From Mucilaginibacter empetricola (GTDB taxonomy: Bacteria > Bacteroidota > Bacteroidia > Sphingobacteriales > Sphingobacteriaceae), in assembly GCF_024808665.1 (NCBI RefSeq), contig NZ_JANUBZ010000016.1:1-43403 (forward strand): 43,403 bases of DNA, read 5' to 3'. Numbering within the stretch: position 1 is the first letter of the stretch; each line of letters starts with the position of its first letter. The notes beneath the pieces were generated by a model, which was not told the origin of the DNA, searched no databases, and saw only the letters and a list, made by a program, of their open reading frames with translations. Of this stretch, positions 366-43,403 are shown in pieces. Position numbers and translations under genes: made by a program.

Positions 366-391
366 CTCCCCCTTCAGGGGGCTGGGGGGTT
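366..391. repeat. GC-rich repeat arm (family 3) at the marC stop
   Basis: The sequence is CTCCCCCTTCAGGGGG followed by CTGGGGGGTT. The same core appears at 39252-39277, 39363-39388, 41975-42000 and 42094-42120. The final TT is part of the TAA stop codon (minus strand) of the MarC-family gene, the same placement as at the ftsW stop. No opposing arm was found to the left. Confidence 0.85.
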
Positions 392-962
392 ATAAATGCG
401 TATTACTCCTGAACAACTTTATCGCGATAGCTAACAAAATAATACCGAAAGCTTTGCGCAATATGGCTAAGCCGGTTTGACCCAATAGATGCTCCAGCCA
501 TTTTACATTTTTCAGTACCAGGTACACAAACAAAGTATTTAATATAATGCCTACCACAATATCCTGTGTTTGGTATTGTGTTTTGAGCGATAACAGGGTC
601 GTCATAGTGCCGGCTCCGGCTATTAGGGGGAACGCAAGTGGGACGATAGATACCGTGGCAGGCATATGATCTTCTTTAAAAAGGGTAATGCCCATTATCA
701 TTTCCATCGCTATAATAAATATCACCAGCGAGCCTGCTATGGCGAAGGAAGATACATCTAAACCTATAATACCTAGCAGCTCATCGCCCACAAACAAAAA
801 AACTATCATTAATACCAGTACCGCTATACTGGCTTTTTCCGACTGGATATGCCCTGCCTTTTGGCGCAACTGGATGATTACGGGTATGGCACCCAAAACA
901 TCAATAATGGCAAACAGGATCATCGTTACGGAAAGTATCTCTCTGAATATGAATGGATGCAT
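390..962 (-). CDS. MarC-family integral membrane protein
   Basis: The product is 190 residues with about six hydrophobic segments and belongs to the MarC/UPF0056 (NAAT) family. These are inner-membrane proteins of unsettled function; the old link to multiple antibiotic resistance has not held up. The start FREILSVTMILFAIIDVLGAIPVI and the central PLAFPLIAGAGTMTTLL stretch are typical of the family, and the length matches the usual 190-220 residues. It starts 11 bases after the stop of the upstream MFS gene, so the two probably form one transcript. The stop codon overlaps a GC-rich repeat arm. The family call is confident; no substrate can be assigned. Confidence 0.88.
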   Translation of the reverse strand: MHPFIFREILSVTMILFAIIDVLGAIPVIIQLRQKAGHIQSEKASIAVLVLMIVFLFVGDELLGIIGLDVSSFAIAGSLVIFIIAMEMIMGITLFKEDHMPATVSIVPLAFPLIAGAGTMTTLLSLKTQYQTQDIVVGIILNTLFVYLVLKNVKWLEHLLGQTGLAILRKAFGIILLAIAIKLFRSNTHL

Positions 963-38158: not shown

Positions 38159-39313
38159 CTACCGACTTATTTTAAAAACCTCCTTAGCAATTACCTCATC
38201 TGCGTTGGGCAGCGCTAGTTTGCCAATTTGATCACTTAATCTCTTTTGTAAATCCTTATCCCCTAAAAGTTCTATTGCTTTGTCAACCAGATTTTGTTCT
38301 GCATCTCTATCGGCAACAAAGGCCGCTGCATTTTCCTGTACCAGCGCCAAAGCATTTTTTGTTTGATGATCTTCGGCCACATTAGGCGATGGCACCAGTA
38401 TTACCGGCTTTTTCACCACACACAGCTCTGCTATTGTTCCTGCCCCTGCCCTTGATATAATAACATCTGCGGCAGCATAAGCCAAATCCATCCGATTTAA
38501 AAATTCAACAATCTTCACATTGGGGTGATAATTTTCACCCAGCTTTTCGATGATGCTTTTATAATAAAACTTGCCTGTTTGCCATATCACCTGCACATCT
38601 GCCGCTATTATTTTATCCAGACCAGCCATTATGCTGTTATTCAATGTCCGGGCACCTAAACTGCCACCGGTAACCAGGATAGTTTTCTTAAATGCTGATA
38701 GCGAATAATTTTCGAGCGCCTGCATTTGTTTACCGTTAATATCAACCGATTCCTTACGGATAGGGTTACCGGTTTTAATAATGTTTGCCGCCGGGAAAAA
38801 CTGCTCCATACCATCAAATGCCACACATACTTTCTGCGCTTTTTTACCCAACCATTTATTGGTAATTCCGGCGTATGAATTTTGTTCCTGTATCAGGTAC
38901 GGAATTCCCTTTAATGAAGCCGCATACAACAACGGACCCGAAGCATACCCACCTACACCCACTGCGGCATCTGGTTTAAAATCCTTTATAATTTTAACCG
39001 ATTCCCTTACACTTAGCCACAGCTTTACAGGGAACATCAGGTTTTTCAGAATGGATTTACGCTGAATCCCTTGAATGTCCAACCCTATTATTTTGTAGCC
39101 GGCAGCCGGAACTTTTTCCATTTCCATACGGCCATTTGCGCCTACAAATAGTATCTGTGTATCAGGATCAAGCTTTTTTAAAGCATTAGCAATAGCAATA
39201 GCCGGGAAGATATGTCCTCCGGTACCGCCGCCGCTAATGATTATGCGTTTGCCACCCCCCACCCCCTGAAGGGGGAGTTTTTGATTGGCGCTTTGGTTAT
39301 TCCTCGATTCCAC
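38159..39313 (-). CDS. murG: Lipid II synthase MurG (N-acetylglucosaminyltransferase)
   Basis: MurG adds GlcNAc to lipid I on the inner face of the membrane. The 384-residue GT28 enzyme has the acceptor-side loop SGGGTGGHIFPAIAIANAL, a second G-loop ILVTGGSLGARTLN and the UDP-GlcNAc signature SRAGAGTIAELCVVKKP...EDHQ. The open frame starts at a GTG at 39313. The conserved fold begins only at residue 22; residues 13-21 (LPLQGVGGG) are encoded by a GC-rich repeat arm. An in-frame GTG inside that arm (39262) is an alternative start. The extension is not expected in other MurG proteins, which usually begin a few residues before IIISGGG. Confidence 0.96.
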   Translation of the reverse strand: MESRNNQSANQKLPLQGVGGGKRIIISGGGTGGHIFPAIAIANALKKLDPDTQILFVGANGRMEMEKVPAAGYKIIGLDIQGIQRKSILKNLMFPVKLWLSVRESVKIIKDFKPDAAVGVGGYASGPLLYAASLKGIPYLIQEQNSYAGITNKWLGKKAQKVCVAFDGMEQFFPAANIIKTGNPIRKESVDINGKQMQALENYSLSAFKKTILVTGGSLGARTLNNSIMAGLDKIIAADVQVIWQTGKFYYKSIIEKLGENYHPNVKIVEFLNRMDLAYAAADVIISRAGAGTIAELCVVKKPVILVPSPNVAEDHQTKNALALVQENAAAFVADRDAEQNLVDKAIELLGDKDLQKRLSDQIGKLALPNADEVIAKEVFKISR

Positions 39314-39388
39314 TGGTTGCTAATTTCTTTATTATATAATTTAACTTCTACTATTCAATCATTCCCCCCTTCAGGGGGCTAGGGGGTT
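39252..39388. repeat. Inverted GC-rich element (family 3) at the ftsW/murG junction
   Basis: The arms are CCACCCCCCACCCCCTGAAG then GGGGAG (39252-39277, inside the murG start) and TCCCCCCTTCAGGGGGCTAG then GGGGTT (39363-39388). Each arm is also a short palindrome around CCCCCTTCAGGGGG. The second arm overlaps the ftsW TAA stop by two bases; the first is read in frame by murG. The spacer is AT-rich, about 85 bases. Confidence 0.9.
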
Positions 39389-40541
39389 ATGCGGGCGCTA
39401 ATTCTGTTATCTCCCCCACAATAACCTTCTTAGGTTCTTCAATATCCCGGCTTACGGAAAGTATAATTCCGAATGCCAAACTGGTAAACAATATGGATGT
39501 ACCTCCCATGCTTACAAATGGTAGCGGTATACCTGTTACAGGCCCTAAACCAACGGCCACAGCCATATTGGCAAATGCCTGTATAGTTAAGCTGAAACTT
39601 AAACCTGCCGCCAGCAATGTTCCAAAAGCTTTTGGTGCTTTAGTGGCTATTTTTATGCATCGGTACAGCAAAAACAAATAAATGCTTATTAAAATTATAC
39701 CGCCTACAAGGCCATATTCCTCAACTATTATAGCATAAATTTCATCCGAGTAAGCTTCAGGCAAACTGTTTATCTCGTCGCTATTGCCTACCCCTTTACC
39801 AAATATGCCGCCGGTAGCAATGGCTATTTTTGCATGATTGGCCTGTTGTGCTTTATCCGGGTCAGCCTTGTCAGGATGCATGAAGGTGTTGATACGCGTC
39901 ATATACATATGCCGGCGGGGACCAAGCATAACCACACAGCCTAATAAAAATGCACCTGCTAAACACACTACTGCAATTTGTTTTACACTGATACGACCCA
40001 TAATAAGCAGTAAAATGCTTACCCCAAACAGCATCAATGCTGTTGAAAGATTGGCCCAGGCTATTAAAATAAACACCAAACAAACTGAACCCATAATGGG
40101 AATAAAGGATTGCTTTACATCCTTTATATTTTCCTGCTTTATTGATAATGTACGCGCCAGGTAGGTAATGAGCGCCAGTTTTGCCAAATCGGATGTTTGG
40201 AAACTTAGCCCTGTACCCGGGATTGACAACCATCTGCTGGCCTGGTTTACATGGCTGCCAAAAAGCAGTGTATATACCAGTAATGGCAGCGTGATAATCA
40301 TTAATAATTTTGATATCCCTCTGTAGTAACGATAATCAACCTTATGCGAAATATACATTAGTACTATACCGGCAACTATCATGGCAACATGTTTCATTAA
40401 AATAGACTCGGCACCTACTCCTTTTTTGTACGCAAGTGAGCCAATGGCGCTGTAAACAGCCAGCAATGAAATAAGCGACAGCAATATGACTATCAGCCAT
40501 ATCCAGCGGTCTCCTTTTGTGTTACTTAATATTCTGTCCAT
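39387..40541 (-). CDS. ftsW: SEDS peptidoglycan polymerase FtsW
   Basis: FtsW polymerises lipid II at the septum together with a class B PBP. The 384-residue protein has about ten transmembrane helices. SEDS features include WLSIPGTGLSFQTSDLAKLALITYLA near residue 112, NLSTALMLF near 164, EEYGLVGGI and PFVSMGGTSILFTSLAFGIILS near the C-terminus. Position between murD and murG in the dcw cluster favours FtsW over RodA. GC-rich repeat arms flank the gene on both sides: one ends five bases before its ATG and one overlaps its stop. Confidence 0.95.
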   Translation of the reverse strand: MDRILSNTKGDRWIWLIVILLSLISLLAVYSAIGSLAYKKGVGAESILMKHVAMIVAGIVLMYISHKVDYRYYRGISKLLMIITLPLLVYTLLFGSHVNQASRWLSIPGTGLSFQTSDLAKLALITYLARTLSIKQENIKDVKQSFIPIMGSVCLVFILIAWANLSTALMLFGVSILLLIMGRISVKQIAVVCLAGAFLLGCVVMLGPRRHMYMTRINTFMHPDKADPDKAQQANHAKIAIATGGIFGKGVGNSDEINSLPEAYSDEIYAIIVEEYGLVGGIILISIYLFLLYRCIKIATKAPKAFGTLLAAGLSFSLTIQAFANMAVAVGLGPVTGIPLPFVSMGGTSILFTSLAFGIILSVSRDIEEPKKVIVGEITELAPA

Positions 40542-40545
40542 TTTT

Positions 40546-40650
40546 GGCCCCCTCTAAATCTCCCCCGGCAGGGGAGACTTTTATTTTCACTTTATTTTAA
40601 TTTTACTCATTTTAAAGCCCTCCCTGCTGGGGAGGGTTGGGAGGGGCTTA
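40546..40650. repeat. Inverted GC-rich element (family 3 variant) at the murD/ftsW junction
   Basis: The arms are GGCCCCCTCTAAATCTCCCC then CGGCAGGGGAGACTTT (40546-40582) and AAAGCCCTCCCTGCTGGGGA then GGGTTGGGAGGGGCTTA (40614-40650). Reverse-complemented, the second resembles the first (GCCCC...CTCCCC.GCAGGG...GACTTT/GGCTTT). The second overlaps the murD TAA stop (40648-40650); the first ends five bases before the ftsW ATG. The 31-base spacer is AT-rich. It is a different subtype from the two neighbouring junctions. Confidence 0.85.
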
Positions 40651-42033
40651 CAATTCCTTTACCGCGTGTTTAAACTGATTGCCGCGGTCTTCATAATTTT
40701 TAAAAAGATCAAAACTTGCACAAGCTGGCGAAAGCAATACTGTATCTCCTTTTTTTGCCAGGTGATAAGACACCTGTACAGCTTCCTCGGCCGAATAGGT
40801 GTTCACAATGATTTCAACCAGATCTTCAAAAGCGTCATGAATCCGTTTATTGTCTTTTCCCAAACAAACGATGGCCTTCACTTTCTGCTTTACGAGGTCT
40901 TTCAACATCGAATAATCATTTCCTTTATCAACGCCGCCCAGTATCAAAACAACATCACTTGTCATACTCTCCAACGCGTACCAGGTAGAGTTAACATTGG
41001 TGGCTTTCGAATCGTTAATAAAGCTGATGCCTGATATCTTACCTACCGACTCTAACCGGTGCTCAATGTTTTTAAAGTTGCTCATGCTGTCCCTTATAGT
41101 GGGGTTGCGCAGTTCGAGCACTTTAGCTGCTATACCTGATGCCATTGAGTTGTAAATGTTGTGTTTGCCCTGAAGGGCCAAATCTGAAATTGACATCTGA
41201 AAATGTTGTTTGTGTACGTTTATGACAATATTGTCTTCTTCGAGATATGCTCCCGTTTCAATCTTTTTTTCGATGGAAAATGGCAGTTGTTGAGCCGCAA
41301 AATTTCTCCCGGCCATTCCTTTAATGGTTTCGGGGTCATCGGCACAAAAAATAAAATAATCGTCGGCTGTTTGGTTTTGTGTAACCCGAAACTTCGACGC
41401 TGCGTAATTTTCCATTTTATAATCATACCTGTCCAAATGATCAGGTGTAATGTTTAGCAGTATAGCTATGTCCACTTTAAAGCGGTGCATATCATCAAGC
41501 ATAAAGCTGCTTAGCTCCAGCACATACAGGTCAAACTTTTCTGTTGCTACCTGGTAGGCAAAGCTTTTACCGATGTTACCTGCCAGTCCAACATTTAACC
41601 CTGCATTTTTTAGGATATGATAAGTTAAACTGGTGGTAGTGGTTTTGCCGTTTGAACCGGTTATTCCTATAATTTTGGCATCGGTATATCTTCCAGCGAA
41701 TTCGATTTCAGATATTACTGATATGCCTTTTTCTTTAATCTTTTTTATAATCGGGGCCTTTTCAGGTATTCCCGGACTTTTTATTACTTCAACCGCCGCC
41801 AATATCTCTTCTTCGGTATGCTGCTTTTCTTCAAAGCGGATATTCCAATCAATTAATTGTTGTTTATAATGATCAGCAATGGCTCCAAAGTCCGAAACAA
41901 AAACTTCATAGCCCTGCTGCTGCGCCAAAAATGCTGCACCAACGCCGCTTTCGCCTGCGCCCAGAACTACTATTACCCCCCCCGCCCCCTGAAGGGGGAG
42001 CAATTGATTGGGTATGGTTTTGTTTTCGCTCAT
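40648..42033 (-). CDS. murD: UDP-N-acetylmuramoyl-L-alanine-D-glutamate ligase
   Basis: MurD adds D-Glu to UDP-MurNAc-L-Ala. The 461-residue protein shows VVLGAGESGVGAAFLA, the P-loop ITGSNGKTTTTSLTYH, ILNITPDHLDRYDYKMENYA, NDSKATN and HRLESVGKI, with all Mur ligase motifs in order. Residues 12-20 (LPLQGAGGV) are encoded by a GC-rich repeat arm (41975-42000) in the same reading frame as the one in murG, placed directly before the first beta strand. MurD proteins normally start a few residues before that strand. The stop codon touches another arm. Confidence 0.97.
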   Translation of the reverse strand: MSENKTIPNQLLPLQGAGGVIVVLGAGESGVGAAFLAQQQGYEVFVSDFGAIADHYKQQLIDWNIRFEEKQHTEEEILAAVEVIKSPGIPEKAPIIKKIKEKGISVISEIEFAGRYTDAKIIGITGSNGKTTTTSLTYHILKNAGLNVGLAGNIGKSFAYQVATEKFDLYVLELSSFMLDDMHRFKVDIAILLNITPDHLDRYDYKMENYAASKFRVTQNQTADDYFIFCADDPETIKGMAGRNFAAQQLPFSIEKKIETGAYLEEDNIVINVHKQHFQMSISDLALQGKHNIYNSMASGIAAKVLELRNPTIRDSMSNFKNIEHRLESVGKISGISFINDSKATNVNSTWYALESMTSDVVLILGGVDKGNDYSMLKDLVKQKVKAIVCLGKDNKRIHDAFEDLVEIIVNTYSAEEAVQVSYHLAKKGDTVLLSPACASFDLFKNYEDRGNQFKHAVKEL

Positions 42034-42120
42034 TTTTCGCGTGCTTTTACTGTTATCTCTTATCTATTTATCAAATCTTCTTCCACCACTACAATTCCCC
42101 CTTTAGGGGGTTAGGGGGTC
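41975..42120. repeat. Inverted GC-rich element (family 3) at the mraY/murD junction
   Basis: The arms are ACCCCCCCCGCCCCCTGAAG then GGGGAG (41975-42000, inside the murD coding start) and ATTCCCCCTTTAGGGGGTTA then GGGGGTC (42094-42120). The outer end of the second arm directly abuts the mraY TAA stop (42121-42123). The spacer of about 93 bases is AT-rich and includes the murD ATG. Confidence 0.9.
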
Positions 42121-43362
42121 TTATCTTAGCTTCAACGTCACAAATGTTATAATAGCCAGCAGGATACCGATAATCCAAAACCGGGTCACGATTTTAGCCT
42201 CATGAAATCCCTTTTTCTGGTAATGATGATGCAATGGCGCCATCAGGAAAACACGGATACCTGTACCTGTTCGTTTCTTGGTGTATTTAAACCAGAATAC
42301 CTGGATAATTACCGAGAAATTTTCTACCACAAAAACGCCGCATAGTATGGGTACCAATAATTCCTTACGGATCATGATGGCAAACACTGCGATGATACCG
42401 CCAATAGCCAAACTACCTGTATCGCCCATAAATACTTGTGCGGGGTACGAGTTATACCATAAAAAGCCAACACATGCTCCAACAAACGCGCCGGCAAATA
42501 TTACCAGCTCACCGGAGTTAGGGATATACATAATATTCAAATAATCGGCTATTACCGTATTACCCGAAACATAAGCCAGAATAGCTAACGTAATGCCGAT
42601 AATGGCAGAGGTGCCGGTCGCCAGACCATCGATACCATCGGTTATATTGGCCCCGTTTGATATAAATGTGATGATGATGATTACAAAAAACATAAACACC
42701 AGTAAAGAATAATGGTCAGTATCGGCACCAATAAACTTCAACACCTTGCCGTAATCAAATTCATTGTTCTTATAAAAAGGCATGGTTGTTTTAGTCGACC
42801 TGATATCCTGTGTATAAACCGGTGTATTGCCACGCATATGAAACTCAACAGGAACATCATATTTAACCGGTAACTTAACCTCCTGCCTTATCACTATATC
42901 TTTGTTTGAATACATGGTGAAGCCAATAAACAAAGCCAACCCAACCTGGCCAACAATTTTGAACTTACCGGCCAAACCTTCTTTATTTTTTCTAAATACT
43001 TTTATATAATCATCTAAAAAACCAATAGCGCCCAACCAAACTGTGGTTACCAGCATCATAATGATGTAGATATTATCAATTTTCGCAAACAGCAGCGTAG
43101 GGATTAAAATGCCCAGGATAATAATAATACCGCCCATTGTTGGCGTACCCGCCTTTTGCATCTGGCCCTCTAAACCCAAATTTCTAACGGTTTCGCCTAC
43201 CTGTTTAAAGCGTAAATAATCGATTAACCTGCGCCCAAAAACAGTTGTTACTATTAGCGACGTAATTACCGCCATTGCCATGCGGAAAGTGATGTATTGA
43301 AACACCCCCGCGCCGGGAATACTATAGTTTTTATTAAGCCAATTGAACAGGTAGTAAAGCAT
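42121..43362 (-). CDS. mraY: Phospho-MurNAc-pentapeptide transferase MraY
   Basis: MraY makes lipid I from UDP-MurNAc-pentapeptide and undecaprenyl phosphate. The 413-residue protein has about ten helices and the family motifs [49 protein letters not shown] and [20 protein letters not shown]. It is about 50 residues longer than E. coli MraY (360). The extra length sits in one loop at about residues 163-216 ([19 protein letters not shown] ... [11 protein letters not shown]). Its start is at the window edge, so upstream murE/ftsI are not visible. Confidence 0.96.
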
Positions 43363-43383
43363 GTTATTTCAATGTGTGGATTT

Positions 43384-43403
43384 CAGATGTGCAGATGTGC
43401 AAA
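43384..43403. repeat. Truncated repeat arm at the window edge
   Basis: CAGATGTGCAGATGTGCAAA is a tandem GATGTGCA-type arm just upstream of mraY, of a kind seen between genes in related genomes. The window ends inside it, so an opposing arm cannot be checked. Confidence 0.5.

Follow-up and report, generated by a model that had tools for sequence, protein, structure and literature searches.

Near the end of the 43,403-nt stretch of the Mucilaginibacter empetricola genome analysed here (contig NZ_JANUBZ010000016.1 of assembly GCF_024808665.1, positions 1–43,403; hereafter the window) lies part of a division and cell-wall (dcw) operon, whose murG, ftsW, murD and mraY genes were named by NCBIfam matches, that of FtsW falling below the curated cut-off. 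Each of the three successive junctions between these genes holds an inverted pair of GC-rich arms around a spacer. We find that these arms belong to the same families as arms that elsewhere enclose a DUF559 (Vsr-like) nuclease gene, that complete arm–nuclease–arm copies are embedded in frame in housekeeping proteins, or fused to them, with the arms open in the host reading frame, and that one and the same site can hold arms alone or arms with the nuclease. On balance we favour, with a probability of roughly 0.55, the reading that the dcw pairs are nuclease-less copies of a homing-type element that is translated rather than spliced out.

Inverted arms at three dcw junctions

The arms at ftsW/murG and mraY/murD are of one type, which we denote C5/G5, and those at murD/ftsW form a different family (family 2) built on the same plan (Table 1). 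The sequence-only reading had picked out arms at all three junctions, a variant in the middle one and an arrangement far from random, and each of these points stands: at most two mismatches to CCCCCTTCAGGGGG are found in 10 window matches against 0.11 expected and a maximum of 1 in 100 shuffles, a count in which one arm may score on both strands. Its placing of the arms at the junctions holds for all three, although the murD-side arm of the mraY/murD element lies inside murD and the open murG frame includes the murG-side arm of the ftsW/murG element. Both arms are read through as an N-terminal extension (..NQ(L/K)LPLQG..GG) ahead of the conserved core, and the NCBIfam match begins at residue 21 in MurD and residue 22 in MurG. 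A generic family-2 pattern matched once in the window against 0.55 expected, no excess over chance, and the family-2 status of the murD/ftsW arms derives from their match to arms in the leucyl-tRNA synthetase LeuRS, described below, and not from this count. The RNA folds predicted for the three junction stretches have z-scores of −4.8, −3.5 and −3.3, with none of 200 shuffles as good. A single sub-threshold microRNA match over the murD/ftsW arms in an Rfam scan of positions 39000–43403 (29 bits against a threshold of 100) was judged to be chance. The window also carries a lone fifth C5/G5 arm next to an open reading frame (ORF; 390–962, minus strand) whose product matches an NAAT-type transporter below that family's cut-off.

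Table 1 Coordinates of the arms and spacers in the window
Feature	Position	Strand	Remarks
Lone fifth C5/G5 arm	368..389	+	Outer edge adjoins the TAA stop of ORF 390–962 (−)
C5/G5 arm, murG side of ftsW/murG element	39255..39275	−	Within open murG frame; translated NQKLPLQGVGGGK, then RIIISGGG
AT-rich spacer, ftsW/murG element	39276..39363	−	Contains GTG start of open murG frame; by eye resembles that of G023, the closest sampled relative
C5/G5 arm, ftsW side of ftsW/murG element	39364..39386	−	Outer edge directly at ftsW stop TAA (39387–39389)
Family-2 arm, ftsW side of murD/ftsW element	40547..40578	−	Transcript sense GTCTCCCCTGCCGGGGGAGATTTAGAGGGGGC; ftsW ATG 5 nt away
AT-rich spacer, murD/ftsW element	40579..40616	−	
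Family-2 arm, murD side of murD/ftsW element	40617..40647	−	Transcript sense GCCCCTCCCAACCCTCCCCAGCAGGGAGGGC; outer edge adjoins murD stop TAA (40648–40650)
C5/G5 arm within murD	41976..41998	−	In frame (LPLQGAGG), ahead of conserved MurD core
Spacer, mraY/murD element	41999..42096	−	Contains murD start codon (42031–42033)
C5/G5 arm, mraY side of mraY/murD element	42097..42118	−	mraY stop codon (42121–42123) 2 nt away
AT-rich word arm	43366..43403	+	TTTCAGATGTGCAGATGTGCA; adjoins mraY start; partner arm outside window

Arm design, copy number and position at gene edges

Read from gene to gap, a typical C5/G5 arm (TAA-CCCCC-NNN-CCCCC-TGAA-GGGGG-AA) has an outer C block that a short linker joins to a hairpin, and the G arm of this hairpin is able to pair with either C block. 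By inspection, an L arm is followed by an R arm with the outer blocks pointing outward, each facing coding DNA. The 5.83-Mb genome under study (G000) holds 41 exact copies of the core and none of the reversed pattern, which upholds genome-wide the earlier claim of a repeated element; relaxed matching gives 77 hits (overlaps included) against 4 in the control, and the 55 of these with at most one mismatch we term strict arms. Within the genus, exact cores per genome range from 0 (G002, G003, G007, G008 and G012) to 68 (G020); they are present in 20 of the 25 genus genomes, this one included, and in 1 of 16 from other families. The spacers mostly differ between copies by eye, and some retain an apparent native terminator. 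Copies in coding DNA are not dense: a scan for family-2 and family-3 arms over positions 1–400000 of contig C1 found two arms, neither within a called gene. Strict copies near murD are likewise sporadic, as a strict regular expression detected GC arms at 4 of 80 named Bacteroidota loci.

To place the 55 strict arms relative to genes, we took the longest open frame outward of the outer block and noted where it ends, using mechanical frames and not curated genes. Of the 36 arms that face a gene 3′ end, 23 lie at 0 nt and 4 at 1–4 nt, and in 5 the first stop falls within the arm; the others comprise one at 28 nt (the inner copy of a tandem pair), two that are read through and one in frame inside a gene that we take to be radA. 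The other 19 face a 5′ end; an ATG lies no more than 8 nt away in 11 of them, and 8 are read through. For comparison, 2,000 random points in the called gaps of C1 gave 6/956 at 0 nt and 43/1,044 with an ATG within 8 nt. All 23 stops at the arm edge are TAA, against 204 of 317 ORF stops in a 400-kb sample, and the terminal TAA is therefore probably part of the C5/G5 element. In a check for target-site duplications, TAA/TTA was found at the outer edges of the arms, yet whole gaps often differ between genomes. The arm in the radA-like gene (C1:457424–457445, locus L095) is a single C5/G5 arm in frame (ERLTPLPPEGGVFGKG), and it is retained in G023.

DUF559 nuclease genes lie between arms of the same families

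DUF559 was found in 49 of 60 genomes. Of 32 loci among the best matches, 5 that were cut short were left out; among the remaining 27, 25 have an inverted flank match of at least 24, compared with 5/81 shuffled and 21/81 cross-locus pairs, the last figure being high because arm families are shared between loci. One element of this genome (C9:260421–260862) carries a DUF559 gene that reads through the arm into HisF, whose match starts at residue 128, just past the arm peptide; C5/G5 arms flank the HisF copies. DUF559 also lies in frame in two further proteins of this genome: in IcmF its arms are GCCTCACCCCGGCCCTCTCCAAAGGAGAGGG and the inverse of that sequence, and in LeuRS they belong to family 2. 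In other genomes, MetH, HsdR and an Lhr-type helicase each contain it, TruB carries it at its end (host proteins were identified by Pfam/NCBIfam), and some copies are free-standing intergenic genes. Four of these intergenic genes (L362, L363, L358 and L359) show a third arm plan, with CTCACCC(C), an extra palindrome and a CCTCT..AGAGG hairpin.

The dcw arms can be assigned to these elements on three grounds: shared arm families, a matching asymmetric pair and a single site found in several states. C5/G5 arms occur at both dcw and HisF, and the CCTCTCC-type arms that flank the IcmF nuclease also occur in murD of relatives. Compared arm by arm, the murD/ftsW pair and the one that encloses the LeuRS nuclease agree at 29 of 33 positions (murD side and 5′ arm) and 30 of 33 (ftsW side and 3′ arm), whereas a murD/ftsW arm is identical to the inverse of its own partner at only 21 of 31.

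At individual sites, occupied and empty alleles coexist, as expected of homing elements; this was seen at two sites in LeuRS and at one in IcmF. LeuRS loop A carries arms only in G000, G008, G005, G006 and G043 and arms plus DUF559 in the distant G029; the pair in G021 is mixed, G011 and G007 have single arms, several other genomes have AT-word repeats, and G023 and others have no GC arms. LeuRS site B contains DUF559 in G000, G023, G008 and the distant G038, and remnants in G021, G011 and G015. An IcmF homologue (P0097) has arms at the DUF559 site and no nuclease. In LeuRS loop A we also observed unrelated in-frame repeat families that vary by species (L369–L398), for example TTTCGGATTTCGG, GACTCAAGACTCAAG and CACTCACCACTCA.

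EDxHD/Vsr-like endonucleases and DUF559 represent a common nuclease fold class. The D, E, D, H and D columns are invariant in all 30 aligned DUF559 rows, insertions and intergenic copies alike, and the nearest solved chain is the endonuclease-like protein 3hrl (E = 2.8 × 10−20). The DUF559-fused frames of this genome are open, without stops; Pfam/NCBIfam matching of those fused proteins that were tried showed no intein family, and the Rfam scan, which covered window positions 39000–43403, gave no ribozyme call there. In a tree of the 30 domains, the six HisF copies group together (93/95); the IcmF group (95/93) takes in the Mucilaginibacter LeuRS-B and TruB copies, and the LeuRS-B copy of G038 stands separately from these. 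From this tree, DUF559 appears to be largely faithful to its insertion site, with jumps.

Junctions in relatives

In G023, which among the sampled relatives is closest in MurD and FtsW, 31 junctions outside the dcw operon could be matched, 29 of them with flanks on both sides, and arm state was judged by eye. Arms are kept at 13 of the 29 (several decayed) and no clear arms are seen at 16, of which 3 begin with short C-rich strings that may be remnants. At the 16, the whole gap is usually different, often of similar length, and several contain other inverted repeats. This turnover, together with the range from 0 to 68 cores per genus genome, supports the mobility that had been suggested from the sequence.

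The dcw junctions vary as well. At mraY/murD, 24 genus loci assessed by eye have GC arms in both places in 7 cases, in murD only in 5, decayed arms in 3 and none in 9, G023 among the last. Family-2 arms at murD/ftsW are common to G000, G023 and G006, and G010 has a PF05635 gene there; the CCTCTCC-type arms lie in murD of G006, G008 and G001. The sequence-only reading had reasoned that finding these arms at the corresponding junctions of distant relatives would speak for fixed regulatory hairpins instead of mobile DNA. That expectation is borne out in part, as G029, from another family, has a pair at mraY/murD, yet one of another arm family, and several members of the genus have none. In G010, the mraY/murD and ftsW/murG junctions (L123 and L153) carry tandem double arms flanking the gap on both sides.

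AT-rich arms and PF05635 genes

A fourth dcw-side junction, upstream of mraY and extending past the window end, is built from AT-rich word arms around a four-helix-bundle gene. This PF05635 gene (L224) lies at 43733–44026 of contig C16, between inverted arms of the GATGTGCGGATGTGCA type; the gene preceding mraY is presumably murE. The PF05635 gene is followed by repeated copies of the arm stretch and by a masked stretch. All seven PF05635 genes found in this genome lie between inverted flanks (scores 29–71), and among 34 loci tested (2 of 36 dropped) the flank score reaches at least 24 in 32, against 4 of 68 cross pairs, and 28 in 28, against 3 of 68. In their inverted ends around an S23-type gene the AT-word cassettes resemble intervening sequences (IVSs) of rRNA; no such gene was seen between C5/G5 arms.

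Inverted repeats also bound some other gene gaps. In 400 kb, 10 of 170 gaps are so bounded at a score of at least 26, compared with 0 of 170 for direct repeats and 1 of 340 for cross-locus pairs; one of the 10 is a C5/G5 pair, and AT-rich arms of many sequences bound the others. At lower scores, real and direct counts barely differ (29 versus 27 at a score of 18, 15 versus 14 at 20).

Alternative explanations

The sequence-only reading had likened the arms to REPINs, paired inverted repetitive extragenic palindromes (REPs) moved by a RAYT transposase, and had proposed a search for a Y1/RAYT gene. The paired inverted palindromes, their intergenic bias and the stop codons that the repeat supplies all agree with this idea, and the genome does encode seven Y1 genes, four of them RAYT-sized. 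However, three of these four (L034, L036 and L037) have clear inverted flanks of their own, each of a different palindrome family and none C5/G5, and L035 has a weak pair only. The 1.5-kb flanks of all seven are free of C5/G5 arms, the sole approach being a lone family-2-like arm about 500 nt from the IS200-sized gene L032, which counts for a transposase and against our own reading. No GTAG or CGTC tag was seen at the arm ends by inspection, and by eye the spacers mostly vary, whereas REPIN copies share theirs. Since the Y1 genes lack C5/G5 flanks, we set RAYT-driven movement aside as improbable; the transposase search, for a RAYT or for the parent insertion sequence of a miniature derivative (MITE), covered the Y1 family, and the cargo looked for between the arms was DUF559, which arms of the same families do enclose. 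The coincidence of outer arm edges with stop and start codons also speaks against a REPIN. Still more improbable is that the arms are conserved regulatory hairpins of the dcw operon (terminators, attenuators or messenger RNA stabilizers). The strong predicted folds and the location beside stop and start codons would suit such a role, but the arm family changes between relatives and arms recur at many unrelated genes; the empty junction of G023 and the copies within coding frames led us to set it aside.

A more searching alternative is that selection-free DNA is passively overwritten by inverted-repeat cassettes during end-joining or template-switch repair, the DUF559 and four-helix-bundle genes being passengers. 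It draws on the unrelated repeat families that share the LeuRS loop in frame, on the inverted repeats around gene gaps and PF05635 genes, and on junction contents that change between relatives while gap length is often kept. We nonetheless consider it unlikely, given that distant loci share the same asymmetric arm pairs, that catalytic-type residues are kept in every DUF559 row and that DUF559 groups largely by site.

Several observations weigh against the homing-type element that we prefer. The dcw copies themselves lack a nuclease; G010 has 51 exact cores and one weak DUF559 match, and G008 has DUF559 and no exact C5/G5 core. Site faithfulness of DUF559 fits plain vertical descent equally well, and the tree has long branches, with 7 of 27 inner branches strongly supported. 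The AlphaFold model of the fused LeuRS is poor (predicted local distance difference test score (pLDDT) 55.5, predicted template modelling score (pTM) 0.32). The read-through class of arms is no evidence by itself, since 384 of the 956 random 3′-facing points likewise fall within an open frame. Gaps in G000 and G023 are often fully different at near-equal length (76 versus 71 nt, 85 versus 82 nt), which looks like replacement rather than simple insertion and is not explained by simple homing. Finally, AT-word repeats of quite different sequence occupy LeuRS loop A as well as some gene gaps, so a general overwriting of unconstrained DNA may need no DUF559.

If the homing-type element is nevertheless the correct reading, the DUF559 nuclease would nick or cut element-free alleles, and the gap would be repaired by copying the element, which would thereby spread in a homing-like way and now and then jump to a new place. 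Its arms, once translated, would serve as flexible linkers and permit the host protein to fold, making splicing unnecessary. Arms-only copies might arise by loss of the nuclease or be copied in trans. The edge positions would follow because only unconstrained DNA can be overwritten (gene gaps, N and C termini and surface loops), and the C5/G5 family would bring its own terminal TAA. More tentatively, at somewhat less than even odds, both kinds of cassette may belong to a general Bacteroidota class of selfish inverted-arm cassettes whose arms finish at coding edges or are housed in frame within essential proteins, with a DUF559 homing branch, an S23 branch and mostly empty copies, whose overwriting of gaps and surface loops would leave unrelated DNA at the junctions of close relatives.

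Comparison with known systems

Rickettsia palindromic elements are palindromic selfish DNA lying in frame inside proteins, as here, but they are single palindromes and are not known to have a nuclease-bearing form, whereas the elements described here have paired arms and a form with a nuclease. There is a close likeness to the ShiLan-type insertion in phage methylases, a mobile insertion that keeps the host frame open, bears an endonuclease and is judged to spread in a homing-like manner, with similar insertions reported in prokaryotes (PMC11855218). As in that case, no intein or intron parts were found here within the searches given above. The ShiLan nuclease, however, is of the HNH type, out of frame and in phages (PMC11855218), whereas the DUF559 described here is read in frame within housekeeping genes of the chromosome, is bounded by inverted GC arms and has arms-only counterparts. 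DUF559 has been assigned to the EDxHD family of Vsr-like homing endonucleases (I-Bth0305I family; PMC9403480), and a homing role is suspected here too; unlike those enzymes, it has no intein family found around it in our loci and has inverted arms instead.

REPs, including the CGTC type, resemble our arms in being inverted palindromes with copies inside ORFs and copies that supply stop codons (PMC3733652, PMC6006769), and the CGTC REPs have no dedicated transposase (PMC6006769), just as no Y1 gene was found with C5/G5 flanks here. The arms differ from REPs and REPINs in lacking a GTAG or CGTC tag and a matching RAYT, and in their variable spacer, nuclease cargo and in-frame pairs. The IVSs of 23S rRNA have inverted ends around an S23 gene, like the AT-word/PF05635 cassettes, but they lie in rRNA and are excised by RNase III, whereas the cassettes lie between protein genes (PMC4990558). 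TAACTGA heptamers, also present in five Bacteroidetes, often end 1 nt from start codons or overlap stops; they are direct repeats, with no cargo gene reported in the available part of that paper, whereas our arms are inverted pairs (PMC4679880). A literature search, which covered few subscription journals, found no match to the arm strings and no work on DUF559 between inverted arms.

Implications

Should this reading hold, a nuclease gene can reside in essential enzymes without splicing, its hairpin ends being translated as linkers, and empty shells of the same element would reshape gene ends in many places, those of MurD and MurG included. It would give a testable role to DUF559, still named as a domain of unknown function, and would account for a class of unusual insertions, rich in Gly/Ser/Pro, that tRNA synthetases and mutases carry. 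It would also offer a reason for the fast turnover of gene gaps in this genus.

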